DNA from: Polytrichum commune
Lineage: Eukaryota > Streptophyta > Polytrichopsida > Polytrichales > Polytrichaceae
NCBI GenBank assembly: GCA_950295325.1
Contig: OX485804.1
Span: 8,370,001 to 8,434,000 of the forward strand
Reading direction: 5' to 3'
Length of the DNA: 64,000 nucleotides
The translations under genes and the position numbers were made by a program. Below the pieces are notes generated by a model. The model saw only the letters and a list, made by a program, of their open reading frames with translations. It ran no database searches and was not told where the DNA came from. Below are positions 1,767-61,822 of this stretch, piece after piece. Each line of letters starts with the position of its first letter. The first letter of the stretch is position 1.

Positions 1767-4700
1767 ATGATGAACGGGGAGGTGGAATCGTCCAATGGCA
1801 CGGTGACGGATCTGCCCTCGGAAGTAGTGGAGAAGAGCAACAAGGAGGGTTTGGTGTCCGCCACCCAGGAAGAAGAGTCCTCGCATGAGGAGGCCTTGGC
1901 GACTCCGGATGATCAAATGCTGGTAAGTTGATGAGGCGCTGGTTCGGGTTCTTCTGGATGTCAGTGTAAATTGTTCGCCCTCGTGTGCTAATGTGTGTGT
2001 GTGAGAGAGAGAAAGAGAGAGAGAGAGAGGGGGCTCTTCGGTGTTATCATTCGCTTTGTCTGGGATGCAAATGTCCGATTTGTAGCCTCCGACAGTGTCG
2101 TCCTACCTCATTTGGATAATGCCTGCGAAGAGGATTTTGACCGTGACGCACCGGTCCACACTTGCGATTGAGAAGGTGAAGTGGTTGCGACGATTATGAC
2201 AATGCTCGCGTTTGATCTGTTTGTTCAGTTGCGCTCGCGCCCTCCTTGGTTAAAACAGGCCTGAATTCTGGATACGGGACTTGCTCCAAAGATAATACGC
2301 GGCGAGTCAACCTTTGGGTAAACTTGGCGTCAACTTCACCATTCTTGCATTGACCTGGGATTAACCACATTTATCCCAGTTTAATAAAAGGGTATCTTGC
2401 TTTATCCGCTCGTGTATAGTGGTGCATCTATAGATGCTTACCCTCGAAACATATTCCTCTGTAGCTTTTTGGATGGACGCATTTTCTGCAGCCGTGGGTA
2501 TCGATGTGAAGGAGCCACGGTTAGGCCGAATGTGTGGGTTTGAAAGTTTCTGTTGCCTCTGCATTCTACTGCTGTGGGGTGCGAAGGGTCCCAGGTTTGC
2601 GAAGAGAGGTGACTGGGGAACCTTAGTGTGAGATTGTGGATGCTCAAGATGCTATCATCATCCAGCGCTAAAGGAAAATGTTACATCATCTAGCCACAAT
2701 GTATGTTGCAGGAGGAAGTTGTGATCATTTGGGCAGAAGTTACTGGAGTTTTGAGGAATGTTGGGTTCTAGATTTGCGGGATAAACAACATTTGTGAATG
2801 TGATAATATCAGACTTGTATCAAAGTGTTCCTGGTAGTCGTTGGGGCTTGCTGTACATTTTTTGTTCTGATTTAAGCAACATCCGTAGTTGCCCCAGTTG
2901 CCTGAAAATACCGGAAATGTTGGGTTTTGGATTAAAACAGGCATATGGTGGTCTGAAGGAGCCAATTGGAGATGCCGACGCCATGTTTGGAAGTAAGTTT
3001 GTTGTGACTTTTACTAAAGTATTGAATTTTATTTCTGGTATATCCTTACCACATTCAGTTGCTTGTAGGGGTTAATGTGGATATTCACATATTGCACTTA
3101 TTTAGAAACTGAGGATGTGAGGTCTATTCATGTTTATTACCAGGGGTATCCTGAGCTCTATAGACTTGGATGAGTCATCCACCTTTTAACTATAGGTATG
3201 GTTCCTGCTGTTGTCATATAATGCGAGTTTCAAATAGAATTGGATATATTGTTGTTTGGGAGTCTTCCGCTTTCAAATACCACCCAGATAAAGTGGTCTT
3301 TTGGGAAACAGTTATTTATTCTAGCAGCCTTCATAAGCTCTTCACACGGGTGGCATTCATCTTAGAATTTTTCTTGTGTTGTCCAAGAAATTTGTTATAG
3401 TCTCCTGTAACGTCCGAAAAGTTTTTGAAGTTATTAAGGTTAATTGCCTACCTCTTTAAAAGGGCATAGGCTATTTCCCTCATGGCATAGGTTGCATCCT
3501 ACAATATCAAATTTTTGGAAGTTGAAAACCTTTTGAGTTTTTAAGTTACCCGCCAATTGCCTTCAAAACTAATTTTTAGTAGGTTAAAAATCCTTCATAT
3601 CTTTTAATGTTGTAGGCTTTAAATTCAAAATTTGAGTACTAAGTGGTATCCTTGGCAGGAATTGAACCTGGCTAAGCCCTCACCACGTTTGAAGGCCAAG
3701 GATTAGCCAACTCTTTTTTAAAGAGTTAATTATAAGTTATGAAAGGTTGCTAAAATTCAAATGAGTTTAAGGGTGAAAGTCCTCACCATCTTCTGATTCA
3801 ACCTCTACTCTTCCTGCAAGATATAGCCTAAAGATATGTACTTAGGCCAACTAATTTCCCAATTTGAAGAAGGATGAATGACTAAAATCCTCTCTTTTAA
3901 AAAATTTGTAGGCAAAATTTCCCACATGTTTTTAATCACATAGGTTGATATCCTATGTTTTTAAATTGTCCATAGGCTCTTTGTCCTACACTTTCAAAAT
4001 TTTATAGGCTAAGTCACAAATTTTGTAGGCTGCATTTGTATTAGCCTTAGGCTCTTGCCGGGGGCTGGTCTCCTGAGCTCCAGAAGAGCCTGAATATATC
4101 TCAAGCGACTGAGATCATATTTTCTTTATTTGTTTGTTGCTTTCTCTTTATTTTGTTCTCATGAATGACATTTATTCCTGCCTGCTCATGCTGGATTCTG
4201 ATCTTAAATTACAAAATTCTTCTATTGCAGCAGGTCCACCTCCTATTGAGGAGTCAACAGGAGGTTCAGAAGTCCTTGAAATTCCTGACAAGGATATGCT
4301 CCCAGAAGATATCTTCCCACAGCCGGTGGCACCAGAAGTGGATGAGGAACTGCCAAGTGACCTTGAAGAAGGTGAAATCAAGGAATCTGAGAGTGCTGAT
4401 ACTTCCAATAGTGGTCTGCAAAATGGACCTACATGTAGTTGGCCACATGAAGCAGAAAAGGATCAGATTGATGGTGTTGACTCTCCCTGCATTAGTAAGT
4501 TCTATGCAATTTTGTTATTTTTGAAACATTACTTGTCATCCGTATTACAGTTGATGTACATCATTCTGTAAAGTCTCTTCTTTGATCTCAATCCTCTCCA
4601 AGAAATTTTCCCAACCTAGCTACATACACTGTGTTAAGGCAATATAAGGTGGAAGGATTGTGGAAGGATTGACATTAAAATTAAATTCATATCTCAAGCA

Positions 4701-6862
4701 TCTGAGGATAATGTTTTTTATGTTTCTCTTACATACAAACACGACCTAGGATCTGTTAGAGTACAAATTGCACTAGGAAATACAGGCTATCCTTTGTTCC
4801 ATGTGGGGAGGTTGTTCTTTAAATTCTAGCTGACTTGGAAGGAGTGCAACTTTCTTTGTATATGATTTCTAACAAGGTTTGAACTTCTTCAGATGAGTCA
4901 GCAGCAGGTTTGGAACTCCCTCTTCGCCCTGAAGTTGAAAGTAGGAAACCAGATATTTCTGATGGGTGGAACAGGCCACATGGGAGCACATCTGGCTGGG
5001 CAAGTGCAGACCCTCCAGGTGAGGAAATTACCAGCGCTTCTGTGGCTCCAGAGGTTCCTGTGTCAGAATCTGGCGTTCTTGGGACAGCTCCCGCTCCAGT
5101 AGCTCCAGGGACGGAGCAGCCAACACTGCAGCGTTATACATATTACATGATAAAAATTCCGAGGCCTGTTGATGACAAAGGTAAAGCTGATATCAGCAAT
5201 GCAGAATCCAAGTTACAAGAGAAGGCAGATGAACGTGATCAGCACAATGTGCATGTTCAGGCAGCTAAGAAAAAGAGGAATGAAGCATTTGAGAAGCGGA
5301 AAGCTGCTGGAATGTTTGAGCGGGAGTGCTTGCAAAAGCTGCGTGCAAAGTATGATGAGGTGAAGCCCTTGAGGGATAGTATAAAGACGATAAAAGGAGA
5401 TGAGCGAAATATGAGAGAGAGGAACCAAGGTATGCCTCGGTCTGAAGAGGACCTAGACTACAGAATTGCAACCTTGGAAAGGAGAATCCAGCATGAGACC
5501 ATTCCCTTGAAGGAGGAGAAACAGTTGATGCGGGACATTAAGGCCCTTGAATCATGTCGGGAAAGTGTAAGGCAGAATGCGGCCCTGAGACAGCAAGTCC
5601 AGGAATCTATGGGCAATCGGGAAGAGATGGAGGAAGCCCTGAAGCCATTGAATGCAGAGTATAAACAACTGGAAGTGGAGTACAAAGCAGCAATATTGAA
5701 CCGAGAAGCTGCTGAGAGAGAATATGATATGCAGAATGAAGCCTTGAGCAGCGTGATGGGGCAATTGCACAAAGCAAATGACTCCAGGCAAGAGGCTTAT
5801 GAAGTTCGAAGGGCTCTGAAGCAACAAGAGTATGCACGACTGAAGGAATTCTATGACAACAAGAGGGAAATACAAACAGCAAAAGATATGGCCAGCCAAC
5901 CCAAGAGCAGGCAGGCAGTTGAGGAACTCTGTAATGCTCAGGTGGAGCGGATTATGGAGCTTTGGAACAGCAACGAGGAATTTAGGAAGAATTACGTGAA
6001 AGACAATGAAAGGAGTACAATCAGACGGTTGGAAACATTGGATGGGCGGGCTCTTGGGCCAGGTGAAAAAGCACCCACTATGTCCAGTTTTGTACCTCCA
6101 GTTGCTTCTCAAGTGGCAGAACAGAAGAGCAATCCATCAGCCACGGAGAGTGGGCGACAAGGTGGAAACACTGGTGGAGAAGCTACTGAAGAGGCAGGGG
6201 TAAAGAAGGTGAAAGCCCCAGTAAAGAAAGAGTCTGAGGCAGTTGCGGCAACAAAAGAGGCCGACAAAACAGTCTCAAAAGAGGAGAGAAGGAAACAGAG
6301 CTCTGTAGTTCCTGAGGTGGCAGAACCTATTGTGGTGGAGAAGTCACAAGAGGAGATTGAGCGAGAGGCAGCAGAGCTGAAGGAGAAGAGACGGGCTGCA
6401 GAGATGGCGAAAGCTAAAGAGGCAGAAGAACGAAAGAAGCGCACAGCAGAAAGGTCCCAGTTAAAGGCACAGGCATGGGCTCAGAAAGAGGCAGAGAGAA
6501 AGGAGAAGGAGAAGGAGAAGAAGAACCGCAAGAAGTCTGCAACAGTGAACTCTGTAGAAGCTGTCAATCTATCAGAGTCTGCCCCTGACGCAGAGGGCAA
6601 CAAAAGTGGTCCCGAAGTTGACGAACCTGTGGTAGAGCCAACAACAAAGGTAACTGCAAGGCGGAAACATGGGGTCACAAACACCCAGAAGGTGGTTGCT
6701 AGAGAAGGCCCTGCAGTTGTACGTGTGCGGAGGAAGAGTCAACAGCAGAAGATGTTAGGTCTGCCTCTGCAGGCTGTGGTGATCATTGCCTCTGTATCAG
6801 TTATTTTAGTTGCAATTGCAATTTTCATGTTCTTTAGGGGCAATTCTGGGCAAACAGCTTAG
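1767..6862 (+). CDS. PPI1-like: Proton pump interactor 1-like protein (paralogue A)
   Basis: Exons read as 1767-1922, 2941-2992, 4231-4494 and 4893-6862, giving 813 aa. Intron phases are 0, 1 and 1, and every junction has GT-AG. The start is the first of two adjacent ATGs, followed by MNGEVESS. An acidic low-complexity N-terminal third leads to the conserved PPI core from about residue 239 (YTYYMIKIPRP). Next come a long coiled coil, a GMPRSEEDLDYRI/IQHETIPLKEEKQ segment typical of the family, a Lys/Arg/Glu-rich region, and one C-terminal membrane helix in the last ~35 residues. In Arabidopsis, PPI1 binds the plasma-membrane H+-ATPase C-terminal domain and stimulates the pump; the same role here is inferred. 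It is longer than the ~610-aa Arabidopsis protein because of the acidic N-terminus. The 4231 acceptor is a NAGNAG site (4234 also keeps frame). Confidence 0.85.
3409..4040. repeat. Insertion-like block in intron 2 of PPI paralogue A
   Basis: The flanks match paralogue B. Sequence before 3400 resembles B's intron just upstream of its third exon, and sequence after about 4060 resembles B's intron upstream of its sixth exon. The block between has no counterpart in B and stands where B's exons 3-5 would be. It starts TGTAACGTCCGAAAAG, a common plant LTR-type start, and contains a truncated tRNA-like stretch near 3650-3715 on the minus strand. Repeated 'ATAGGTTG...ATCCTA' motifs occur near 3486 and 3941. 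I could not define both ends, so a retroelement remnant is only a suggestion. Confidence 0.4.
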
Positions 6863-23735: not shown

Positions 23736-26700
23736 ATGATGAACGGGGAGGTGGAATCGTCCCATGGGACGGTGACGGATCTGCCCTCGGAAGTGGTGGA
23801 GAGCAGCAACAAGGAGGAGTTGGTGTCCGCCACGCATGAAGAAGAGGAAGAGTCCTCGCAAGAGGCTCCGGATGATCAAATGCTGGTAAGTTGATGAGGC
23901 ACTCTTTTGGGCTTCTTTTGGATGTGAGCGTAAATTGTTTTCCTTCATCTTGTAATAAGAGAGGGAGAAAGAGACAGGGGCCCTTTTGTATCATTGTCAT
24001 CCTCAGTCTGTCGCCCGCTGGGCTGAAAATATTCGATCTGTAGCCTCCAACAGTGTTGTCCTTCCTTATTTGGTAAGTGCCTGCGAAGAGGGCTTTGACC
24101 GCGACGTACCAGTTCCACACTTGCGATTGAGAAGGTGAAGGGGTTGCGATGACGATGGCAATGCTCTCTGCTGATCTGTTTGTTGAGTCGCGCTCGTGCC
24201 CTCCTTAGTAGGTAATCAGAGACCTGAACTCTGGATATGGGGCGCGGCGAGTCGAAAGTGACTCCGACCCCGGTTTAAGGAGCCCATGGGAACCTTGGAA
24301 TTTACGAAACGTAGCGTAGACCTCAACTACCTTAGATTGCCCTCATCGTGCTACCACAACGATTCCGGCTTCTTGGTTTCTCTTTTTCGTTACACAATGA
24401 AAGAGAACATCTGTAGATGCCCCGTTGGAGACATTTTTCTCTGTAACTTTTCTGCTTTACGCATGCTTTCATGAAGGCCGTAAGGCTATGCCGAATGTGT
24501 GGGTCTAGGAGTCAGTTGCCTTTGTATTCTGCAACCTACTGTTGTGGGTCGGGAAAGGTCCTAGATTTGCAGAGGGAGGAGACTGTGGAACCTTAGTGTC
24601 TGGTTATTGGTGCCTAGGATGCTCCCATCATGCAACTTCACTGGAATTGTGAGGAATCCTGGGTTCTAGATTTGCGAGATGGTTCAATATGTTGACTGAA
24701 TATGTGTGACTTGATAATGTGAGAAGTGCAGCAAAGTGTTTCTTGCAGTCGTTTGGACTTGCTGTACATGTTTTGTGCTAGGTTTTGTTTTCAATTTAAG
24801 CTACATCTGCAGTTGCTCCAATACCTGAAAGACTGGAAATGGTGGCTCTTGATCTGAACAGGAAAATGGAAGTGTAAAGGAGGAAATTGCAGATCTTGAC
24901 GCCATGAGTGCCGGTAAGTTTTCTGCTAGTACCATAAAGGTATTGAATTTTAATTCTGGTATACTCGCACCATACTCAGTTGCTTGTAGGTGTTGTTTTG
25001 GACTTTCATGTTTATTGCAGTAGCTTATCTAGAAACTGAGGGTTTGGGGTTTTATTCGTGGTGATTACTAGAGTTTTTCCCGAGTTGGATGGCTGTCAAA
25101 GGTGTGTTTCTTGCTGTTGTCATATAACGTTAGTTGTAAGCAGAATTGGGTTCATTGTTGTCATGTTCGGGATTTTGCACTCTAAAATACCACCTGGATA
25201 AAGGTAATACCCCCTGTTTCATCTTCGAGGCTGTTATTCATTGTGGGCAAGTTTTGTCAGCTCTTCATAATTTCTGGTCTTCCTTTTATGTAGGAGGTGG
25301 ACCTCAAGATGAGGCATCAGCACGAGGTTCAGAAATTCCATTGAATTCTGAAGAAGACAGGCTCCCTGAAGATGTTTTCCGGAAGTCTGTTGAATTGGAT
25401 GTACTTGAGGAGCTGAGGAATGGTCATCCTGAAGCCCGATGTGAGGAAGTGGAGATTCTTGATAGCTGCAGTAGTGTATTGCCAAATGGGACACATGAAG
25501 TGTTGGAGGAGGAGAGTGGAGATGTAGATCCTGTGCCTTTTAGTAAGTTTTGTGTATATTTTGGAGTGTTCTTGGAGTTAGTTCTGGCTGTTTCTTCCTT
25601 TCATTATATGTGAGACAGTTGATGTTTACACTAATGTAGTGCAGTCACACAGACCTTTAAACTAAAGGTATTGGGTTTTCCTGAGCTCTATTGTTTCTGA
25701 TATAGCAGGTACGTCTCAAACTGAGGAGGTAACAGGAGGTTCAGAAGTCCCACTCGAAATTGAAAATGACGGGCTCCAGGAAGATACCTCACTTCAATCA
25801 GTGGCTTCAGATGTGACTGAGAAATTGCCAAATGGACATCCTGAAGTTGAGATAGGGGACTCAGAGAGCCGTTCAACTGAAAGTGGCGATGGCAATGCTG
25901 TGGCTGCTAGTAAGTTTTTTGTGTTTTGGTTTTCTACAGAAGTTGATATTGACATCTTCTCATCACTTTTATGTTACCACGTTCTTGTCGTAGGTGTCAC
26001 GTTTGTTGCGTAGCTTGAGTGTTGTCTTGATTGGTATGCAAATTAATGAGAGGAAACCAGACAGGAGTTGTTCAAGGTACTCATTGGACCACGAGCATCT
26101 GAGTATAGAGTCCTTTGATGTCATGTTTGACATATTAAACACAGGACAGTTCCTAATATTTAACTGCTCTTTGCATTCAGAAAGTTTTCTAGAACATGTC
26201 TGCATTCAATGTGGAGGGCCTCTAATGTTTCTAAGTGGCTTCCACAAGCCTAATATAGGCTTGTCTGTTTCCTTATATTGTAGGTACATGTGCAGATGAG
26301 GAATCAGCAGGTGGTTCAGAAATTCCTTTAGATGCTGCAACAGAGGAAGTCTCTTTGCCATCAGCTCCATTGGACGTAGCTGAGGACCTGCCTAATGGAC
26401 ATTCTCAAGTTGAGGATGAGAAAGTGGACATTCATGATAGCCCAAAGACTGCAGTGCCCATCTTATCTGGTTGGGCTCAAGCAGTCATGAAGGGGCGTGT
26501 GCAAAATGTAGAAACTGTGCCAACTGGTAAGTTTTGTGTTTGTTCTTTTTTTGTGTCTCTATAATTTTTTCTTGCATTCTTTTTGTTCATTGCTCATCAC
26601 TATCATTGCATATACATTTTTGTGTTGTAGTTTCTGGTAATCCGAGTTAGGTTCCTGGATTTTCTAAGAAAATGGCCATAGGTCTCCTGAGCTCCACAAG

Positions 26701-29456
26701 ATCCTGAGGCCCTGAATATACACCTTCAGGAACTGGGCTTAGAATATGATTATTTATTTCCATTTTGTCCTGATTTTGTTTCATGTATGACATTTATTCC
26801 TTCATGGAGTGTATATCCTCATTCTGATTTAAAATTGTTTATTTCTTTCCATATTACAGCAGTTACTCCTCAAATTGAGGAGTCAGTACGGGGTCCAGAA
26901 GTCCTTGAAATCCCTGAAAAGGATTTGCTCCTGGAAGATGCCTGCCCACAGTCCGTGTCATCAGAAGTGACCGAGGAACGGCCGAGTGGAATTGAAGAAG
27001 TTGAAAACAAGGAAGTTGAGTGTCCTGAAGACACCTGCAATACTGAACCACAAAATGGACCTACATGTAGTTCATCACCTGAAACAGCAAAGGAGCAGAT
27101 TGACATTGGTGACTCTCCTTGCTCTAGTAAGTTGCATGGAATTCTGTTTTAGTTCATGCTGGCAACAACCGTTCAAATCCTTTGAATGGTATTAAAGTTG
27201 ATGCGAATCATCATATATCAAGTCTCCTCTTCGGTCCTCATCTTGTCCAAGAATTCATACGAGGATAGAATTAAACTGAGAATGGTATTTTTAGTTTCTT
27301 TTGTATGACATGCACATGTGATCTAGAGTTATAATATCAATTGCAAGTGGAATTATGAATTGTCCTTCGTTCCATGTGGGAGTAAGTATGGCTGACTTGG
27401 AGTCAAACTTCCCTCGTACATGTTTACTAACTTAGTTTGTAATTCTCTAGATGAATCAGCAGGAGGTTTGGAACACCCTCTTCATCCTGAAGATCAGAAG
27501 CTCCCTGAGGATGTCTCTCCGCAGTCAGTGGCAGCAGAGAAGACTGAAGAGCTACCAAATGGCCATATTGGAGCTGAAAGTAGAAAACCAGATATTTCTG
27601 ATGGGTGGAACAGTGGGAGCACATCTGGTTGGGCAAGTGCAGACCCTCCAGGTGAAGAAAGTAGCAGCATCCCTGCAGAGGTTGGTTTGTCAACCTCTGG
27701 TGTTCTTGGGTCAGCTCCTACTCCAGTAGATGCAGGGACAGAGCAGCCAACACTGCAGCGTTATACATATTACATGATAAAAATTCCCAGACCTGTTGAT
27801 GACAAAGGTAAAGCTGATATCAGCAATGCAGAGTCCAAATTACAAGAGAAGGCAGATGAACGGGATCAGCACAATGTGCATGTTCAAGCAGCTAAGAAAA
27901 AGAGGAATGAAGCCTTTGAAAAGATGAAAGCTGCTGGAGCATTTGAGCGGGAGTGCTTGCAAAAGCTGCGTGCAAAGTATGATGAGGTGAAGCCCTTGAG
28001 GGATAGTATAAAGACGATAAAAGGAGATGAGCGAAATATGAGAGAGAGGAACCAAGGTATGCCTCGGTCTGAAGAGGATCTCAACTACAGAATTGCAACC
28101 TTGGGAAAGCGAATTCAGCATGAGACCATTTCCTTGCAGGAGGAGAAACAGTTGATGCGGGACATTAAGGCCCTTGAATCATGTCGGGAAAGTGTAAGGC
28201 AGAATGCGGCCATGAAACAGCAAGTTCAGGAATCTATGGGCAACCTGGAGGAGATTGAGGAAGCCCTGAAGCCATTGAATGTACAGTATAGGCAACTGGA
28301 AGTGGAGTACAAAGCAGCAGTTGCGAACAAAGTAGCTGCCGAAAAGGAATATGATACGCTGAATGAAGCCTATAGCAGTGTGATGGGTCAAATGCACAAA
28401 GCAAATGACTCCAGGCAAGAGGCTTATGAAGCTCGAAGGGCTCTGAAGCAACAAGAGTATGCGCGACTGAAGGAATTCTATGACAACAAGAGGGAAATAC
28501 AAACAGCAAAAGATATGGCCAGCCAACCCAAGAGCAGGCAGGCAGTTGAGGAACTCTGTAATGCTCAGGTGGAGCGGATTATGGAGCTTTGGAACAGCAA
28601 CGAGGAATTTAGGAAGAATTATGTGAAGGACAATGAAAGGAGTACAATCAGACGGTTGGAAACATTGGACGGGCGGGCTCTAGGACCAGGTGAAAAAGCA
28701 CCCACACTATCTGTCCCTTCACGAGTGGCAGAACAGAAGAGCAATCCATCAGCCACGGAGAGTGGGCGACAAGGTGGAAACACTGGTGGAGAAGCTACTG
28801 AAGAGGCAGGGGTAAAGAAGGTAAAAGCTCCAGTGAAGAAGGGCTCTAAGGCAGTTGTGGCAACAAGCACTGAGAAAACAGTCTCAAAAGAGGAGAGAAG
28901 GAAACAGAGCTCTGCAGTTCCTGAGGTTGCAGAACCTATTGTGGTGGAGAAGTCACAAGAGGAGATTGAGCGAGAGGCAGCAGAGCTGAAAGAGAAGAGA
29001 CGGGCTGCAGAGATGGCGAAAGCCAAGGAGGCAGAAGAACGAAAGAAGCGCACAGCAGAAAGGTCCCAGTTAAAGGCACAGGCATGGGCTCAGAAAGAGG
29101 CAGAGAGGAAGGAGAAGGAGAAGGAGAAGAAGAACCGCAAGAAGTCTGCAACAGTGAACTCTGTAGAAGCTGTCAATCTATCAGAGTCTGCCCCTGATGC
29201 AGAGGGCAACAAAAGTGGTCCCGAAGTCAGAGAAGCTGTGGTTGAACAGACGAATGTAAATGTGAGGCGGAAACGTGGGGTAACAGTCTCCCAGAAAACG
29301 GTCACTAAAGCAGTTGTGGAAAGCCCTTCACTTGCACGTGTGCGGAGGAAGAGTCAACACCAGAAGGTGTTTGGCCTGCCTCTGCAGACTGTGGTGGTGA
29401 TGAGCTCTGCAGCAGTAGCTGTTTTAGTTCCAATTTCAATTTTTTTGTTGCGGTAA
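23736..29456 (+). CDS. PPI1-like: Proton pump interactor 1-like protein (paralogue B), expanded acidic N-terminus
   Basis: Exons read as 23736-23885, 24862-24913, 25294-25542, 25709-25909, 26284-26526, 26860-27126 and 27451-29456, giving 1055 aa. All introns are GT-AG and frame is kept throughout. Exons 3-6 are each a multiple of three and all phase 1-1. Each encodes an acidic module of the form EES-GGSEvPLe...LPED...SVa.evtEeLPNGH-E, and exon 7 opens with one more module. The conserved PPI core starts near residue 492. It is followed by coiled coil, a Lys/Arg/Glu-rich segment and one C-terminal helix (VFGLPLQTVVVMSS...). The presumed role is binding and stimulation of plasma-membrane H+-ATPase. 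Over 28490-28700 only about five third-position changes separate it from paralogue A. The acceptor of exon 6 is NAGNAG (26860 or 26863). Confidence 0.85.
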
Positions 29457-33165: not shown

Positions 33166-33450
33166 GGGCCGGTTCACAGGGGATCCCAAGTCCCAAGTCA
33201 CTTGAGGTCAATTCGTGCAACCTCAGTTGTTAAGAGCATGGAAGTTGGGATTTGTCACTTCATACGAGGTCCCAAGTCCCAAGTCCCAAGTCACTTGAGG
33301 TCAATTCGTGCAACCTCAGCTCTTAAGAGCATGGAAGTTGGGATTTGTCACTTCATACGAGGTCCCAAGTCCCAAGTATGACATGGATGCCTACATGGCA
33401 ACACTTTTTGGAGGTGAGGCTCGGGACTTGTGTTGAGAGTTGGGTCAAGC
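33166..33450 (-). mobile_element. Reverse-orientation relative of the 1-1109 Tourist-like repeat
   Basis: It begins TTAGGGCCGGTTCACAGG after a TTA. The reverse complement aligns with the units at 1-1109, including the TGACCTCAAGTGACTTGG block and the TGGCAACA...GTGTTGAGAGTTGGGTC tail. An internal ~110-bp direct duplication is present (about 33184-33265 and 33290-33370). No matching right terminus was seen, so it is probably truncated. Confidence 0.6.
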
Positions 33451-33844
33451 AAAAAGTCATTGGTGAAACTCATTATGTTGACAAAACAATCTACAGTACA
33501 TATCTAATGATGTTGGGAATTTTCTTTGGATGTGATGACCTACCATAAAAAATTCAACCACATGAACCTCCTCTCTGAGCTCTCAAACCCCGGGTATGCA
33601 ATTCCCATATTATACGCGGGGGGCATAGGCATTAAAAAGGCTTAGAGGATGGCTCTTGTAAAAATTATATCAAATTATACGAAAATTAAAGGACCAAAAA
33701 TTTGGGTGAAAGACCAAATTACATAAAAATGAGATGTAGAGAAAGTTGGGTTGCATATTTATTTAAACATAAACTCCACAACATATGTAAAGATTTTAAC
33801 CTTTTTAACCTTGTTGAGTGTCTAATTTAAAAAACATCCACACA
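33451..33844. other. Intergenic, nothing recognised
   Basis: AT-rich with a short G-run near 33617. No gene or defined repeat. Confidence 0.4.
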
Positions 33845-38930: not shown

Positions 38931-41900
38931 ATGGGAAGCTCCATTTCGGAATCAAAAGACTGCTTTGCAAACGAAGTGCATCCACCATCTCCACCTGAAA
39001 TCATCAGCATTGAGGGAACTGGCCACGACGTAGACGATGAGAGAACCTTCTACTTTCTCTCCAATGCAGGTTCCAGTTTGCATATTCCAGAGTCTGCCAC
39101 ATTCCCCCAACTCAGATTCAACCCGGGTAAGAGGATCAAGAATATGATCATGTGACTTGTCACACATACCATACCTTCATCAAAGAACAATGTTGACTTC
39201 ATTTCTCAGACTTGGTCTAAAAACCTTAGTTTGGGAAGCAATGTCTTTGCGCTTGACATACATCTAATTATCTGTATTCGAATAGTGTTTTTGAGCATGA
39301 CTGGTTTTCATTGCTGTTTAGTGCAACATGAGGCTCCCGAACATAGGCAGTCGACGTATTTTGGGAGTGGGAACTCTACTGCCACCGATCTCACAGATAT
39401 TGAGCAGTTTCAAATCAATCCAATCGACATCCCTCCTGTCGGCTTGCAGGCAACCGCACCTTTTCCTATCATCTTGAAGGCGAGTTTACAAAGCCTTCAT
39501 CCCTGGCACTTGTTTGCGTGCACAAAAACTCTTAAATGTACTGGTTAAACTTATCTACTGTCTCTCAGGGAGAGACACAGAAATCTCATTTTAAAGTGGT
39601 TTGTGCTCTGTCTGTAAGCTTCAGGAAGCCATAGGAATAGCTCGCTCTCGAGCACCAGAGTTCAGAAATGAAGGAATCCTTTGATCTGGCTGCAACACCC
39701 AGTTTCATTAGAAACAAATCAGTTAGACATTAATTTTCTCTTTTCGTACAAGTTTACCAATGCAATTTAAGCTCCAAAGCAGAAGATGGCCGAATCCATC
39801 TCAAACCTGTTAAGGGTATGTCAGGACTTGAGGACGTGGAATCTAGAAGGTTGTATATTGGTTGGTCTGTTATGAGCTGAACACAAGTTTGTGCTTTGCA
39901 CAACATGCTTGGGTGTGTGTTATCTGCAGTTTGAGGATGTGAAATACAAAGTGGACATACCACCAGCCAGACAATCGTTGATTGCTCGATTCCGTTCAGT
40001 TGCCAAGGTACGCCATAGCCCAACTGAGAAATACATTCTCAACGGAGTGACAGCGTCGGTTGCACCAGGGGAGATTCTGGCCCTCATGGGTCCATCCGGC
40101 AGTGGGAAGACAACCCTGTTGAATATACTGGGTGGGCGTTTCCAAAAGAAAGTCACAGGCAACATCACTTACAATGGGGAACCATACAGTACTGTACTCA
40201 AGAGAAGGTCAGGTTATGTATATTTTCATCAATCACTACTATAGTAATTAGCTATACCTGGCAAACATTTCACCGATGTTGCCTTTTTTCAGAGGTTATT
40301 GATTTGAAGTAAAGTCAAGTGACCACTGTTTCTTCTCAAGATTGGAGCGTCATGATGCTTCGTACATGATAAATCCCACAGTAAGCTTCGAACTTATGGG
40401 TTTTCCTTACTTGCTACGATGTGTTATCCACAGGATAGGATTTGTGCCCCAAGATGATGTGCTGTATCCTATGCTGACGGTCAGGGAATCACTGGTTTTT
40501 GCTGCTCTTTTGAGACTGCCAAAAGACATGAGCCACCTTCAAAAGATTCAGCGAGCTGACACAGTGTTGACAGACCTTGGACTCGATAGGTCCGCTCAAT
40601 ACTTACTCTACACTCAAGATGGATGCAATTTGATAACAGAAAGATTAGGTACAAAAACTATGGGATGGTTGCAGTAGTAGACAAGGAGAGACTGGTTATC
40701 ACCACAGAAGTTAATGCCAATTTCACAAAAAATGCAGAGTTGGGTATACAGCCTTGCCTGTCTATCTTTCCTGTTCCTCAAGGTCTGTCAAAAAAGGAAT
40801 GAATAGAAAGCTAAGTATGAGTAGATGCGGCTCATCATACTTACAAATTTTGTAAAATTCGGTTTTGGTCTTTCCCTCTCCAATTTGCTCCTCAGATGTA
40901 GAAATACGAGGATTGGAGGGCCTTTCATACGGGGTGTGTCAGGGGGTGAGCGCAAACGTACCAGTATTGGATATGAGATACTGGTGGACCCTTCCATTCT
41001 CTTCCTGGATGAGCCTACCTCAGGCCTCGACTCCACTACGGCTCTCAAGATTCTCAAAGTTCTTCAAAAGAATTCTCAGGTACGATCGGTACATAGTCCA
41101 TCGACATCCCTTCTGTTCTGTCCAGTTCAGAACGAACCAACCAATACAGTAAACCCTCTGACTCAACATGACTTTTAGTCAGGAGTTCGTTATTTTGCAT
41201 ACAACACCTTCCATGTTGGGTAAGTTTTCCGGTACATGCTTGGAGGTAGTGCGTAGGTGTTATAATGAGTCTGGTCCTTAATGAACCGAGGTAAGTTGCC
41301 CTTTATCCAAATCCAATCACTACCTCCGAGGATGGGCCCGAAGTGGAAAAATATCATCAATATTGTAAACCTTATGTATTGCACATCTCACTGTTGTGTT
41401 TGTTTAGTTAATAACATAGCATGAACAAGGTTAAGAGGGAATTCTGCCATATTGGAATTGGTAAACTTGTTGTATGGAAGCTAACCTGTACGCTAATGTG
41501 GCCATTGGATTGTTATTGGAGTCCAGGTTGGCAGGGTGATTGTAACCACGATACACCAGCCATCGAGTCGGATGTTCCACATTTTTGACAAACTCATACT
41601 ACTCTCTGAAGGCAACGCCCTGTATTCTGGACACGCTAACGAGGCGATAGAGTACTTCCAATCGTTACACTTCACCCCACAGATTGCAATGAACCCTGCT
41701 GACTTTCTACTGGACTTGGCCACTGGGATGACAGAAGACATTACAGTGCCGGAAGAGCTTGAGAGATTGGTACATGGGATGATGAACATGTCTTCCACCA
41801 ATGTGGACAATGAACAACAACAACAACAACAACAACATAGCAGGATAGGTGGAAATCATAACGACATGATTTGGAGCTACAACAACAGCAATCTGGGACA

Positions 41901-44900
41901 AATTTCTGAAGAGTTTCAACGGGACTTGGTCGTCAAGGTATGATCACTAAACTGCCACAAGCAGTGTGATTTGATAGAATTTCACAATCATGTTTTTGGT
42001 TGTAAGGGTTTTCTAAAGAGGAGATGATTAATTAACACATGGATGACTGTGCTCTGCAACGGCTTATGAAGGCAGTAAGTAGCAAGGAACTGAAGAATGT
42101 GCTCCAGATTTATGGGTACTACATTAGAGTTATCCTATGACTCAAATGGAACTGTTCGTTGGTAGTTGGCCCCCTACAATTTTGCATTGATCGTTTTGCA
42201 TGCAATATTACTAATTTCTTTCCACTTACAGTGGTGTTTGCTTGGAGGAGATGTTTGGATTTGAATAAAGAGCAACCTACTTCGGTTCATTAAAGGCCAA
42301 ACTCATTTTAGCACCTCTTGGCATGCCAGACATGAGTTTAACCCTTAGTGGATCGATATAGAACGTTCTTCATTCAAACCTCCACACTGCCTCCAAGCAC
42401 ACACAAAAATCTTACGGAACATGGAAGGTGTTGTATGCAAAACCCGACCAAAAGCCATGTCGAGTTAGAGCATAACTCTTTTACTATGATTGCAACGAAT
42501 AGTATTTAACAAGGGATCAAAATCCATAGAAAAGATCCAGGCTAGAAGATAGTAAGCAAAAGCTTGCTGAAGAAAATACCAGAATGACAACGTCCTCATT
42601 AAGTTGACAAGGGGAAAGAAGTTTCCCAACTTCTCTTAGGCAGGACTAACAGTTGCTTGTTCTCCACAGTATTTGAGAAGAAAATACAAAAGCAAGGTCG
42701 AACCTGCTGAGAAGACATCCATTCATGACAGGCAGAAGGTGCCGCAGGAGTTGCAGAAAGCGGTACAGTCAAAAAAACAATGGACTTCATCGTGGGGCCA
42801 ACAGTTCATTATACTCTTAAAACGGACTACGAAGGAGCGCCGGAGAGGCTACTTTAGTAGCTTAAAACTTTTGCAGGTCAGATTTTCTTACGACCTGGAA
42901 TCAAAAATAGGTGGCTGGAGAAACTGAAATTCCTCCCTCTTTAATTTCATTTGCAGATCCTCGGGGTTACAGGGGTGAACAAATTTTCCCAATTCACAAT
43001 TTCAATTTGATATTCTTTGGGATTGCCTTTGTTCTTAGCACATATAATAATTTATATACCTAAGCGTGTACCCATGCAGCACCTTGTTCCCTTACTGTTT
43101 AATGAGAATGGTCAGTAGGTGAGCCGGGAAAAGCCCAAACTTGTGTGACTACTTGAAACACTTACCAAATTAAGATCGAAGGATTAATTTGCTTTACCAG
43201 TAACCTTGCATTAGTTTCACACCTTGAAAGGCAGTACCAAAATGTGCAGGCTGTAGGGGTGGCAATGCTTCTTGGTCTTCTCTGGTGGAAGCAAAAACTT
43301 GACACCAATGAAGACATCCAAGACCAGGTATCGATCCCCGTTATGCCAAAGAAAGGTTCTCAGAAAATTGATTTCAGGCTTACTTGACACCAACGTAAAA
43401 GTATAACAATTTCCAAGTCTTCAGAACTGAAAAATGTCTGATTCACCTACATTCAACTACTCTAGCAAAAAGCTGACAAGATAAGTGGTGCAAAAAGGCT
43501 TCAATAGGTACTATGCTTGAGAACTTAATGTAATATGAACGTCTCATCATATCCAGCCTTCTGTTTGGAAAATTTGAGAAATTGAGATCAAGAATTGAGT
43601 TCTGTTCTATTTCACTCTGACTTTTGGTCAGGAGTTGGTTGTTTTGCATACAACATATTCCAAAATTGCCAAGTTTTTGGTGGATGCTTGGAGGTTTGAG
43701 CAATGAACATTCTAGATCGGTTCATTTAGGGTCAAATTCTATTTGGCATACCAAGAGTTGGTCAAATGAGTTTGGCCCTCAATGAACCGAAATAGGTTGC
43801 TCTTCATTCAAATTCATGCATTACCTCCAAGCATGCACCACAAGTGGAAAGATATGATTGATATTGTCAGCAAAATAACCAATGGAAAATGACAAGGGAC
43901 TATCTCCCAACGAAAAGTCCCATTAAATTAAAGGATATCTATAATTTGTCATAGAAATATGACATTGCCATCTAAAGCAAATATGGTAAAGAACACTGAC
44001 CCTTTGTTCTTGCTTCCTTACAGCTTGGACTACTTTTCTACATTTGCATCTTTTGGGCAACTTCCGCAATGTGGACAACGCTCATGACATTCCCAATGGA
44101 AAAACAGAATTTAGCCAAGGAGAGAGCAGCTGATATGTATCGGTTGAGTGCATACTACTTGAGCAGCACAATATGTGACTGCCTGGCTGAGCTTATCTAT
44201 CCGACAATTTTCACAACCATACTTTATTTAATGGTTGGTCTAAGGAAGAGCATCACAGCGTTTCTATTCACGCTCCTTGCTACACTCCTAATCGGCATCA
44301 CTGGTCAGGCATGTAACAAAACTCATCCTTCTTTGATCAACGATCCTTGATCACCTATTCGAGCTACCCTTTAATTCAATGGGACTTTTCATCAGGAGTC
44401 ATCCCCCATGATTTTTCATGGATTGTTTTGCAAAATGAACGATTTCTTTCCACTTGGGATGGTGCATGCTCGGAGGTAGCGTTTACATGAATGAAGAGAA
44501 ACCCATTTTGCTTCATGGGAGGCCAAACTCATTTTAGCACCTCTTGGCATGCCAAAATGAGTTTGACCCTCAATGAACCAATATACAAAATGTTCTTTGT
44601 TCAAACCTCCACATGGCTCCAAGCATGCACCAAAACCTTCCCAAACATGGAAGGTGTTGTATGCAAAATAACCAATTCCCGACCAAAACTCGTGTTGAGT
44701 TAAAGGATAACTCTATTTGCTACCCAAATTGGGTCAAATCGACAGATACAAACGCGTAGTCCTTATAACACAAAATAACAGATACCCATGACCCATACAC
44801 AGGTCTCACATCAACAGGAAACTTGAATTCACTCTTCAGTGTTTTCTCAGTTAACCATTCTGTAAGAATCTGAATTACAAAATGCACTCAATCAGTTGTA

Positions 44901-45481
44901 CCTGACAGGGGTTTGGAGAGATGTTTGGGGCAGCAACACTGAGCCTGAAAAATGCTGGAGTGCTGGCATCACTCTTCCTTCTAATTTTCCTCCTCGCAGG
45001 CGGATACTATGTCCAGGTAACACAATTTCATGACGAAATAGAAAAATCCATCCCAAGAATGAATATTCAATGAGGATTTTATCCATGGCAGCCATAGAGT
45101 TAGTTACTCTTCACAAGATTCAAATCAGCATCTAAGTAGTTGTTGTTTCCAAAAATTGATGAAAATAACAGCACTGAAAAATTAATGAAATTGAAATGAT
45201 ATAGGTATACTAAGCTCAGCATTTTGTCAATGCAGAGAATGCCAAAATTCATGAGGTGGGTGAAGTACCTTTCGTTTGTTTTCCATGGATTTCGTCTTCT
45301 TCAGAAGACACAATATTCACCAGACCAAATCTATGGATGCTCAACAAAGTGTACAAGAATTGCAACAGCTCCAGCACTGCATGGGGTGGACCTCAACTCT
45401 GGAGTTAAAGAAGCTGGGGTGCTTCTTCTAATGGCCTTTGCATACCGTCTTGTGTCCTACATGTGCTTGCGTAGAATATAA
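38931..45481 (+). CDS. ABCG26-like: ABCG26-like half-size ABC transporter (WBC subfamily)
   Basis: Eleven exons: 38931-39126, 39322-39479, 39930-40207, 40434-40589, 40896-41079, 41527-41937, 42670-42876, 43250-43327, 44024-44308, 44909-45016 and 45236-45481, for 768 aa. Landmarks are [13 protein letters not shown], Walker A GPSGSGKT (about 172-179), VSGGERKR signature (about 277-284), Walker B ILFLDE (about 297-302) and [11 protein letters not shown] with the H-loop His at about 334. A poly-Gln insert precedes the linker, and six membrane helices follow the ERRRGYF segment. The C-terminus ([20 protein letters not shown]) matches Arabidopsis ABCG26, which exports sporopollenin precursors for pollen exine; a spore-wall role here is inferred. 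Introns 2 and 9 use GC donors. An acceptor-like site at 38909 (CTGCCTCAG) allows an upstream exon, so the N-terminus is uncertain. Confidence 0.88.
41150..41385. mobile_element. Foldback MITE, copy B (ABCG intron 5, truncated)
   Basis: The left arm (GACTTTTAGTCAGGAGTTCG, ATTTTGCATACAACACCTTC) and the middle (CTTAATGAACCGAGGTAAG) match the other copies. The right arm lacks the final CCAACTCCCGACC part, so this copy is degraded. Confidence 0.6.
42126..42480. mobile_element. Foldback MITE, copy C (ABCG intron 6)
   Basis: It starts AGAGTTATCC and ends GCATAACTCT, an inverted pair. The right arm has GCCTCCAAGCACACACAAAAAT, GGAACATGGAAGGTGTTGTA and GCAAAACCCGACCAAAA, as in copies A and E. Confidence 0.65.
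43600..43945. mobile_element. Foldback MITE, copy D (ABCG intron 8)
   Basis: The left arm (TTTGGTCAGGAGTTGGTTG, TTTTGCATACAACATATTCC) pairs with the right arm (CCTCCAAGCATGCACCACAA, ..AAAATAACCAAT). The core GGCCCTCAATGAACCGA is shared with copies B, C and E. The end near 43920-43940 carries TTAAAGGATATCT. Confidence 0.65.
44362..44714. mobile_element. Foldback MITE, copy E (ABCG intron 9)
   Basis: The right arm is almost the same as copy A (CCAAGCATGCACCAAAACCT, AAACATGGAAGGTGTTGTAT, ACCAATTCCCGACCAAAACT, TTAAAGGATAACTCT). The left arm near 44395-44480 is more diverged. The core holds CCAAACTCATTTTAGCACCT and its inverted partner. Confidence 0.65.
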
Positions 45482-48443: not shown

Positions 48444-48500
48444 ATGATGATGATGAACATTACTTTTGAGTGTCTCGCTTCTCCCAGGAATTTCATGTGA
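48444..48500 (+). other. Upstream open reading frame in the ClpB leader
   Basis: Four consecutive ATG codons start an 18-codon frame that ends TGA at 48500, 20 nt before the first in-frame ClpB ATG (48520). If it lies in the mature leader it could reduce initiation at 48520 or favour the later ATG at 48685. Transcript ends are unknown. Confidence 0.45.
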
Positions 48501-48519
48501 AGGAACCTACCTTCAAGGA

Positions 48520-51500
48520 ATGTTGATGTTATGTTGTAAGGGACTCCTTCCCGTATCTTCCATATTCTCTTCTGCCGCTCCCACCTCCCTCATTCACAGG
48601 GTAGTATCCACAAGTCGTAGGCGCAAGCTTATCCGGTGCATCGTTTCCTCCTCTAATTCTCCTACTGGTTTCCAATCTTGCAAGATGGCAATTGCCAACC
48701 CTAACCTCCTCACAACGGCACCATCCCTTCCATCCTTCGCATCTCCACGATCATCATCATCTTCTTCTACTTCTTCTTCTTCTTCTGTCACAGTTAGGTC
48801 TGCTTTTGGGAAATCATCGCAGCCATGGCCTTCGATGTCATCCACCTCTTCTTCTTCACGCAGGAGCATTGTGCCTGCCTCACTTGCTTTGCTCAATCGG
48901 GGTCCTGGGGTTAGTTTTGTGGGTCTTCGAGCACAAAGGTCAGGGGGGAAGAAGGAAGGAGTTGTGAAATCGGAACGTAGCAAGAGAGCATATCGAACGG
49001 TACCATCTGCGGAAGCTCGAGATGGGAGGATCAACCAAGGGGAGTTTACAGAGATGGCATGGCAGGCCATAGTGGCATCCCCGGATGTGGCCAAGGAGAG
49101 CAAGCAACAGATAGTGGAAACCGAGCATTTGATGAAGGCGTTGTTGGAGCAGAGGAATGGGTTAGCTCGAAGGATTTTCGCAAAAGCGGGTGTGGACAAC
49201 ACATCTTTGTTGGAAGCCACCGAGAGGTTTATTCAGCGCCAACCGAAGGTAATGGGTGACACAAGTGGGTCTATGCTTGGCAGGGAATTGGAGGGGTTAA
49301 TAGAGAAGGCAAGAGGCAAAAAGAAGGAGCTCGGGGATTCTTTTGTCTCCGTGGAGCATTTGGTGCTTGCATACGCTACAGACAAGAGGTTTGGGCAACA
49401 ACTTTTCAAAGATTTTCAGTTGAGCCCCAAGAATTTGGAGGCTGCGGTTCAGTCCATCAGGGGTTCCCAGAAAGTCACCGACCAAGATCCGGAGGGGAGG
49501 TACGAGGCTTTGGAAAAGTATGGGAAGGACTTGACGGAGATGGCAAGGCAAGGGAAATTGGACCCTGTCATTGGACGTGACGATGAAATTCGGCGGTGCA
49601 TTCAAATTTTGTCACGAAGAACCAAGAACAATCCAGTGTTGATCGGTGAGCCTGGTGTGGGGAAGACAGCCATTTCGGAGGGTTTGGCACAACGGATTGT
49701 GCAGGGTGATGTTCCACAAGCACTTCTTAACCGTAAGTTGATTTCTTTGGACATGGGGTCTTTGATAGCAGGGGCTAAGTACCGAGGTGAGTTTGAGGAC
49801 CGTCTCAAAGCTGTACTTAAGGAAGTCACAGAGTCCGACGGCCAAATTATCCTTTTCATCGATGAGATACATACAGTTGTAGGTGCCGGTGCCACAAGTG
49901 GGGCCATGGATGCGGGTAACCTTCTGAAACCTATGTTAGGTCGTGGAGAGCTTCGTTGCATAGGGGCAACCACATTGGACGAGTATCGAAAATACATTGA
50001 GAAAGATCCGGCTCTGGAACGTCGGTTCCAGCAAGTTTATGTCGACCAACCATCCGTGGAAGACACCGTTTCCATTCTACGAGGTCTTCGAGAGCGGTAC
50101 GAATTGCATCATGGGGTAAGGATCTCAGATAGTGCTTTAGTGGAGGCGGCTATGTTGGCAGATCGATACATAGCAGACCGGTTTCTTCCAGACAAAGCTA
50201 TCGATCTTGTGGACGAAGCTGCTGCCAAACTGAAGATGGAGATCACTTCCAAGCCCACAGCTCTGGATGAAATCGATAGGTCTGTGTTGAAACTTGAAAT
50301 GGAGAGATTGTCTTTGAAAAGTGACACAGACAAGGCATCACGAGACCGTCTGGACCGGCTTGTCACTGAGCTGGAGTGGTTGAAGGGCAAGCAAAAGGAG
50401 TTGACAGATCAATGGGAACATGAGAAGTCGGTGATGACTCGCATCCAGTCCATCAAAGAAGAGGTGGACAGAGTTAACCTGGAAATTCAGCAAGCAGAAC
50501 GAGATTATGACCTAAACCGAGCTGCGGAGCTGAAGTATGGAAGCTTAATGACCTTGCAACGCCAATTGGAAGCTGCTGAGAAGGCTTTGGATGAGTATCA
50601 AAACAGCGGCAATTCCATGCTCCGGGAGGAGGTCACAGGAAATGACATTGCAGAGATTGTGAGCAAGTGGACTGGAATTCCTATCTCAAAGCTACAGCAA
50701 TCGGAGAGAGAGAAACTTCTTCATCTTGATGATGAGCTCCACAAGCGTGTTGTTGGCCAGGATCCAGCAGTGAAGTCTGTTGCAGAGGCTATCCAGCGCT
50801 CAAGAGCCGGCTTGTCTGACCCTAACAAACCTATTGCCAGCTTCATGTTCATGGGACCAACTGGTGTTGGTAAAACTGAGTTAGCCAAAGCGTTGGCGTC
50901 CTATCTGTTCAACACAGAGGAGGCTATGGTGAGGATTGACATGAGCGAGTACATGGAGAAGCATGCGGTGTCTCGGTTGCTTGGAGCACCTCCAGGTTAT
51001 GTTGGCTATGAAGAAGGTGGTCAGCTCACAGAGTCGGTTCGGCGGAGACCGTATGCTGTCATCTTGTTCGACGAGATCGAGAAAGCGCATTCAGATGTGT
51101 TCAACATCTTCCTCCAGATTTTGGATGACGGTCGTGTTACCGATTCTCAAGGCAGGACAGTGAGCTTCACCAACACAGTCATCATCATGACGTCAAATGT
51201 GGGGTCGCAGTATGTGCTTGGAAATGCTGACAACATGGCTGGGAGTAGTAAAGAAGTCATTTACGAGGCAATGAGGGCTCGTGTCATGGAAGCTGCAAGA
51301 ATGACATTCCGACCTGAATTCATGAACCGTATTGACGAGTACATCGTGTTCCAACAGCTTGACCGCGACCAGATCAGCCGAATCGTCAAAATCCAGCTTG
51401 AGCGTGTGCAGACGAGGTTGAAGGACCGCAAAATCAAGTTGCAGGTCACTGAAAGTGCTGTGCAACTGCTTGCAAGCATGGGTTACGACCCCAACTATGG

Positions 51501-51738
51501 AGCTCGGCCGGTGAAGAGAGTCATTCAACAAAGCATGGAGAATGAGCTTGCAAGGTCGATTTTGAAGGGAGAGATCAAAGAAGAGGACACTGTTATGGTT
51601 GACACAGAACTCACATCTGTTGCTGGTGGTGGCCTGCCGCAACAGAAACTCACCTTTAAGAAACTGGAGGTCACAGATGCATCAAATCCAAGCGTGGATG
51701 CCGATTCACCCGTTTTTGTACCAGGACTTCAGAATTGA
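48520..51738 (+). CDS. CLPB3-like: Chloroplast ClpB/Hsp100 disaggregase, intronless
   Basis: A single 1072-codon frame runs from the first in-frame ATG (48520). A second ATG at 48685 (1017 codons) has better context (AAGATGGC) and begins a classic Ser-rich transit peptide, so either may be used. Positions below count from 48685. The Clp N-domain starts near 117. AAA-1 Walker A GEPGVGKT is at 321-328 and its Walker B DE at 393-394. The ClpB-specific middle coiled coil is about 525-650. AAA-2 Walker A GPTGVGKT is at 724-731 and its DE at 796-797. The middle domain separates it from ClpC. ClpB3 resolves protein aggregates in the stroma and is needed for heat tolerance and chloroplast development in Arabidopsis. 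Arabidopsis CLPB3 (~968 aa) is split by introns, so an intronless copy is notable. A heat-shock element lies upstream. Confidence 0.93.
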
Positions 51739-61656: not shown

Positions 61657-61822
61657 TGTTCCTGATTCATAGGCCAAGCAGTCCAGGCTTTTCCCAGCTT
61701 GATTTTTGCATCCCTGAACTGAAACCAAATGCCCAGAAGTGCAAGCATAATTTCAGATGTTCAAGCATTGAATTTACAACCATAATTGCACACATGTTGC
61801 ACATCCAGACACTTCAAAACTA

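Follow-up and report, generated by a model that had tools for sequence, protein, structure and literature searches.

The 64-kb window of the Polytrichum commune genome described here (64,000 nucleotides, positions 8,370,001 to 8,434,000 of the forward strand of contig OX485804.1, assembly GCA_950295325.1) carries two tandem genes, PPI-A and PPI-B, coding for proteins of the proton pump interactor (PPI) family. In PPI-B, four consecutive exons bounded by phase-1 introns code for variants of one acidic module, a fifth copy of which opens the last exon; PPI-A has a single exon of this kind and a damaged second copy. These cassette exons are homologous, coding and frame-neutral, and the array is older than the duplication that separated the two genes. 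The reading favoured here, and held to be rather probable, is that of an old exon-duplication array, probably constitutively spliced, which determines how far an acidic arm extends beside the counterpart of the N-terminal part of Arabidopsis PPI1, a part reported to act on the H+-ATPase.

PPI-B codes for 1055 amino acids, with one terminal stop codon and none internal. According to the gene model it comprises the following parts:

23736-29456, + strand: PPI-B gene, seven coding exons
23736..23885, + strand: exon 1, 150 nucleotides of coding sequence, phase 0-0, acidic N-terminus
24862..24913, + strand: exon 2, 52 nucleotides, phase 0-1
25294..25542, + strand: cassette exon 3, 249 nucleotides, phase 1-1 (246 via the AG of GAG)
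25709..25909, + strand: cassette exon 4, 201 nucleotides, phase 1-1 (204 via the upstream AG of TAGCAG)
26284..26526, + strand: cassette exon 5, 243 nucleotides, phase 1-1
26860..27126, + strand: cassette exon 6, 267 nucleotides, phase 1-1 (264 via the downstream AG of CAGCAG), orthologue of PPI-A exon 3
27451..29456, + strand: exon 7, 2006 nucleotides, phase 1-end, with the fifth module, the PPI core, and a C-terminal hydrophobic stretch

The lengths and the 1-1 phase of exons 3-6 agree with those given in an earlier note on this DNA, with the reservation that the values of 201 and 267 nucleotides rest on different AGs at homologous places. The acceptors of exons 4 (TAGCAG) and 6 (CAGCAG), and also that of PPI-A exon 3, are of the NAGNAG type, and that of exon 3 is TAGGAG; the lengths of these four exons are thereby uncertain by one codon, every alternative being in frame. 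In the alignment of the flanks it is the downstream AG that is in register with the sole acceptor of exon 5. The further copy that the note had placed at the start of exon 7 is indeed there, at about 27451-27575, but 27700, at which the note's stretch ends, is arbitrary. The PPI core lies wholly inside exon 7, and the same one-exon state is found in PPI-A. The cassettes have the same phase at both ends and are thus frame-neutral: all 16 skipping combinations of exons 3-6 are open, and no stop codon arises at any of the 25 donor-acceptor junctions. Because every copy took its phase from the first cassette, the four symmetric exons constitute one fact and not four. Loss or skipping without a change of frame, proposed in the note, is borne out by these combinations and by what is most likely a natural example of loss in PPI-A; duplication without a change of frame is seen as well, but only as an ancient event.

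The homology of the modules was assessed by Smith-Waterman alignment against 1000 shuffles, the five modules of PPI-B (exons 3-6 and the start of exon 7, denoted B3 to B7) being supplemented with two of PPI-A (A3 and A4), with the exon-7 copy cut to 75 and the A4 copy to 50 amino acids. Nine of the ten B pairs were matched by no shuffle and the tenth, B5-B6, by two, while the scores of A3 against the five B modules were equalled by 0, 0, 1, 0, and 0 shuffles. The neighbouring exons are therefore homologous by this test and encode, as had been asserted, variants of one module. A4, the damaged copy in the last exon of PPI-A, matches weakly and is clear only against B7 (shuffles equalling the score: B7 0, B5 2, B3 7, B4 88, A3 99, B6 530). 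Acidic low complexity, named in the note as a possible source of the likeness, is ruled out by a control with the acidic N-terminus: the first 67 amino acids of PPI-B gave scores against the seven modules equalled by 38 (A3) to 850 of 1000 shuffles, and a C-terminal stretch of PPI-B scores equalled by 217 to 961, so that the likeness of the modules goes beyond chance. In a six-frame scan of the window, a module profile scored 54.8-80.0 bits with the six copies from which it had been built, 8.7 bits with the damaged copy of PPI-A, and at most 0.9 elsewhere.

It is highly improbable that the cassettes are artefacts of the gene model, absent from transcripts. On a codon model trained on the open frame of a ClpB-type chaperone from the same window and on the PPI-B core, with the PPI-B introns as background, the in-frame coding scores of the four cassettes are 0.18 to 0.28, those of the introns are -0.24 to -0.72, and the maximum among 2000 intergenic 240-mers is 0.065. 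An open frame alone carries little information, the core mutated randomly at 20% of bases remaining stop-free in 31-39% of trials. The splice sites are also in register across the four cassettes and their orthologue in PPI-A, and weak purifying selection on the modules argues in the same direction.

That selection, as judged from the sequences, is purifying but mild. With A4 omitted, pN/pS (the ratio of the proportions of nonsynonymous and synonymous differences) among the six modules is 0.71 (bootstrap 95% interval 0.54-0.93), and the differences at codon positions 1, 2, and 3 are 0.344, 0.365, and 0.437. This ratio would suit an array of neutral filler, in which any acidic disordered sequence serves and the exons merely record unequal crossing-over, with neither length nor motif selected; so would the substitution rates between the orthologous modules A3 and B6 (nonsynonymous, dN, 0.25; synonymous, dS, 0.30) and the failure of the module profile to match a provisional sequence of Arabidopsis PPI1 (AtPPI1). 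The last exon of the two genes, with dN of 0.072 and dS of 0.193, contrasts with the A3-B6 pair, which counts against strong selection on the motif. On the other hand, pN/pS lies below 1 in 99.3% of bootstraps (over 15 non-independent pairs), five columns (G11, E13, E25, E38, and D56) are identical in all six copies, and most copies share an ELPNGH-like end; the filler explanation is held to be rather unlikely.

The splice sites suggest that all four cassettes are probably included constitutively. The donor is GTAAGT in all nine cases, and the acceptors of the PPI-B cassettes have 65-80% pyrimidine over 20 nucleotides, against 45-65% in the other five, the PPI-A cassette included; strength was judged here by counting pyrimidines by an eye rule, with no scoring matrix. 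Weak or suboptimal splice sites, which are common for alternative cassettes though not defining, are thus not seen, and the predicted folding of the RNA in 25502-25600 and 25650-25730 is ordinary (z of -0.25 and -0.49). These features speak against regulated alternative splicing, in which tissues or stresses would skip exons 3-6 to tune the arm of one gene; the openness of all skip forms, the NAGNAG acceptors of B4, B6, and A3, and the short introns flanking the cassettes (166-380 nucleotides) would agree with such regulation, which is nevertheless considered unlikely. The idea of a present-day system for varying length, put forward in the note, finds no support, the donors being uniform and the cassettes apparently old, not actively turning over.

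PPI-A, which lies in the same orientation, comprises the following parts:

1767-6862, + strand: PPI-A gene, four coding exons, 813 amino acids, in tandem with PPI-B
1767..1922, + strand: exon 1 of the gene model
2941..2992, + strand: exon 2 of the gene model
3294..4066, + strand: stretch of intron 2, 773 nucleotides at the place of PPI-B exons 3-5, with no clear cassette relic
4231..4494, + strand: exon 3, the only cassette exon of PPI-A, 264 nucleotides, phase 1-1, orthologous to PPI-B exon 6
4893..6862, + strand: exon 4, with a module copy lacking 27 amino acids of its middle, then the core and a hydrophobic C-terminus

Exon 1 is 156 nucleotides long in PPI-A and differs from its PPI-B counterpart by dS of 0.26. 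The acidic arm upstream of the TLQRYTYY sequence has 234 amino acids and a net charge of -42 in PPI-A, and 487 amino acids and a net charge of -93 in PPI-B. A dispersed repeat flanks the gene pair on both outer sides, with three direct copies and, about 32 kb away, inverted copies (220-1054 and 33184-33457); a connection with the tandem duplication is possible. Within the last exons, 300 nucleotides (28872-29171 in PPI-B, 6263-6562 in PPI-A) are 98% identical, the flanking stretches being 80-89% identical. Gene conversion was considered for this segment and rejected: the longest run of identical codons has P of 0.0002 over all codons but 0.13 over codons for the same residue, and since the excess disappears in the latter, the run is read as constraint.

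Intron 2 of PPI-A can be aligned with that of PPI-B up to A 3293/B 25203, 90 nucleotides short of exon 3, and the alignment resumes at A 4067/B 26681, in intron 5 of PPI-B. A weaker extension reaches A 3364/B 25288, just 5' of the exon-3 acceptor, but taken alone it scores no higher than shuffled sequence does (56 of 200 reach it). The intervening stretch, A 3294-4066, matches nothing else in the window at an E below 0.5, and relics of exons 3, 4, and 5 were sought in it and rejected, their scores being equalled by 162, 144, and 50 of 200 shuffles; for the end of intron 2 and for intron 3 of PPI-B the counts are 56 and 64. When the cassettes with 40-nucleotide flanks were compared with A 2993-4190 by blastn, the best match was one of 19 nucleotides (E 0.003) in the intron-3 flank containing CCTGAGCTC, followed by one of 17 nucleotides on the other strand (E 0.004). 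The stretch is possibly an insertion tied to the cassette loss, or else decayed intron.

The order of events follows from synonymous divergence and from the introns. The proportion of synonymous differences (pS) between the whole genes is 0.19 over 792 codons and that between A3 and B6 is 0.22, against 0.39-0.65 for the nine pairs of B modules involving B3, B4, or B5; the lowest of these nine exceeds the whole-gene value in 98.5% of 5000 bootstraps. The orthologous introns of the two genes align (E 6e-92 to 1e-7), yet none of the PPI-B introns align with one another at E 0.05, and exon-anchored matches reach only about 13-17 nucleotides into them at the splice sites. The excess of the cassette pS over that between the genes, together with this intron pattern, makes the array older than the gene duplication. 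In a tree of six rows (A4 omitted) A3 groups with B6 (support 99/97), and the approximately unbiased (AU) test on the same rows rejects a tree uniting B3-B6 in a single clade (p 0.0004); the test covers that arrangement only, an origin from the exon-7 copy being answered by pS alone. PPI-A most likely lost exons 3-5 in frame, plus 27 residues of another copy, loss in A4 being the simpler reading since the middle 27 residues are present in the other copies.

Under the opposite scheme PPI-A would keep an ancestral single cassette, and PPI-B would have gained three recently or imported them from another PPI gene. PPI-A is indeed the simpler gene, its intron 2 holds no clear relic of exons 3-5, and import from an unseen gene would be expected to give the same picture; the pS values, the rejected clade, and the PPI-B introns, mutually unalignable while those of the two genes align, all stand against a recent gain, and the scheme is judged quite unlikely.

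Some trace of the manner of copying may be preserved near the cassettes. A short sequence recurs at two places in the PPI-B introns:

25680..25688, + strand: CCTGAGCTC in intron 3, upstream of cassette 4
26686..26694, + strand: CCTGAGCTC in intron 5, upstream of cassette 6

It occurs four times in the 64 kb, both strands counted, namely in these two introns and twice in intron 2 of PPI-A, and was picked by eye, that is, chosen after being seen. Among the 36 pairs of donor tails examined, B3-B4 (17 of 24 positions) and B3-B5 (15 of 24) stand out, and B4-B5 (10 of 24) and B3-B6 (9 of 24) are at chance level. The shared sequence and the likeness of the tails speak for the copying of an exon together with some of the intron ahead of it. 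A unit of two exons (3 and 4 giving rise to 5 and 6) is suggested, no more, by the support for B3 with B5 (82/82) and for B4 with B6-A3 (65/69). Likewise suggestive only is the likeness of the 3' end of exon 2 to some cassette tails, with 13 of 24 positions shared by exons 2 and 3 of PPI-B (P 0.0135) and 15 of 24 by PPI-A exon 2 and B4 (P 0.003), both P values being uncorrected for the 36 pairs.

The assignment to the PPI family, made in the note, is upheld by the likeness of the core to AtPPI1, taken here in a provisional sequence that is consistent with PMC11394911 and PMC7696906 in its length and its S540 peptide. In single-sequence comparisons the PPI-B core is 30% identical over 452 aligned positions (E 1.5e-37) and that of PPI-A 31% identical (E 1.6e-39). 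No Pfam model matches either core, the spliced arm gives only DUF3997 (E 0.093, below its cut-off) in Pfam, and the comparison of the exon-7 product with solved structures yielded a single match with E 0.38. Searches for relatives retrieved 18 pattern-matching stretches from viral contigs and 131 from genome contigs, none of them confirmed, as expected for a plant gene. A putative C-terminal transmembrane anchor is indicated in both proteins by the 19-residue hydropathy maximum, 2.52 at residues 1035-1053 in PPI-B and 3.08 at 786-804 in PPI-A. PMC11394911 describes a C-terminal transmembrane segment and three predicted coiled coils in PPI1, and attributes binding and stimulation of the H+-ATPase to AtPPI1, be it the full-length protein or the N-terminal domain.

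The arm is acidic, as the note had it, and is in addition predicted to be disordered. In an AlphaFold2 model of the exon-7 product (two-row alignment; mean predicted local distance difference test, pLDDT, 57.7; predicted template-modelling score, pTM, 0.23) the module has pLDDT of 33-40 and the core consists mostly of long helices (117-199, 207-356, 362-406, which is broken, and 502-573; no coiled-coil program was applied), with a helix at 645-665 over the hydrophobic stretch. The model of a single cassette lacks secondary structure (mean pLDDT 61.8, pTM 0.14). By the charge-hydropathy rule all four PPI-B cassettes are disordered, exon 5 barely so (0.018).

According to the favoured reading, the founder of the array would have been one exon flanked by phase-1 introns and coding for an acidic motif of roughly 43 residues (ES-GGSE-PL ... 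LPED ... SV ... EELPNGH) with a free spacer. Its repeated copying would have given five modules in the ancestor of PPI-A and PPI-B, and after the genes split in-frame losses would have removed from PPI-A three of the cassette exons as well as the middle of a further copy. The array would thus act as a genetic length adjuster of a disordered, strongly acidic arm, exon number setting the length, and this length would differ between paralogues and species but not between transcripts. The protein would be long-helical and anchored by its hydrophobic C-terminus, and the arm would immediately precede the core, adjoining the counterpart of the N-terminal part of AtPPI1 that is reported to bind the pump.

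Several points weigh against this reading. The evidence on exon use and on the succession of events comes from a single 64-kb window, a third PPI gene outside it could have been the source of exons 3-5, and each module pair offers few synonymous sites, about 30. Where the stretch missing from PPI-A begins on its left side is not sharply defined, the likeness of intron 4 (9 of 200 shuffles) and of part of intron 5 (19 of 200) to A 3294-4066 is borderline, and some decayed intron may remain there. The constraint on the modules is weak, as the A3-B6 rates illustrate, and the NAGNAG acceptors hint at some splice variation. As to the protein, alignments of two and six rows, used for exon 7 and the single cassette, respectively, would lower pLDDT anyway; the charge-hydropathy rule marks the helical exon 7 as disordered too (0.068) and so discriminates little; and the link of both proteins to the proton pump is one of homology only.

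PPI-A and PPI-B form a natural tandem pair in which the same anchored long-helical protein bears an arm of 234 or 487 residues, the difference consisting mostly of whole exons. These natural variants make the role of the PPI N-terminus, which in Arabidopsis is reported to act on the pump, testable. A speculation of low likelihood extends this to non-flowering land plants in general, where paired PPI genes with long and short arms might set the gain of the plasma-membrane proton pump, with the modules as docking motifs (GGSE-PL, EELPNGH), exon number as valency, and splicing adding finer steps.

Other genes in the window comprise a multi-exon ABC transporter at 39876-45481 with ABC_tran and ABC2_membrane matches, of the half-transporter type and, by the order of its parts, apparently ABCG-like; the ClpB-type chaperone at 48457-51738, perhaps organelle-targeted, whose single long open frame includes a serine-rich extension at the N-terminus; and a Tctex-1 type dynein light chain at 60515-61660, split between two or more exons (positions 2-41 and 42-94 of PF03645 in Pfam). 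By its genes the window looks like nuclear DNA of a plant, and the dynein light chain, accompanied by the chaperone and the transporter, suggests a land plant whose sperm are motile. No Rfam families or tRNA genes were found in the 64 kb.

The note had claimed that the array was undescribed, and no description of a PPI exon array was found in one open-access collection either, subscription journals lying mostly outside it; nor was a paper found there that joins proton pump interactors with bryophytes. Symmetric-exon arrays are known in metazoans from titin PEVK and tropoelastin, in which frame-neutral repeated exons lengthen an unfolded segment; those arrays are known for heavy alternative splicing, of which no sign was found in PPI-B. 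Long acidic N-termini occur, too, in some PPI-like proteins of flowering plants. Arabidopsis PPI1 (At4g27500, 612 amino acids) shares with PPI-A and PPI-B the core, the long predicted helices, and the C-terminal hydrophobic stretch, but its provisional sequence has about 73 residues ahead of the core, in contrast to 234 and 487. For At4g27500, the presence of an intron with non-canonical splice sites has been confirmed (PMC5716242); the cores of the moss genes are each contained in one exon. That exon duplication builds repeats in plants is already known from the leucine-rich repeat (LRR) kinases, the only precedent that general searches on exon duplication in the same collection yielded. As described in PMC3050792, their tandem repeats, like those of PPI-B, are split by introns of the same phase at conserved places, which is ascribed there to exon duplication, mutation, and shuffling. 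The two arrays differ in that the LRR-kinases have folded leucine-rich repeats, short exons, and phase-2 introns, while PPI-B has phase-1 exons of 201-267 nucleotides and a module predicted to be disordered; PPI-B would thus represent a plant case of exon duplication yielding a disordered, not a folded, repeat.

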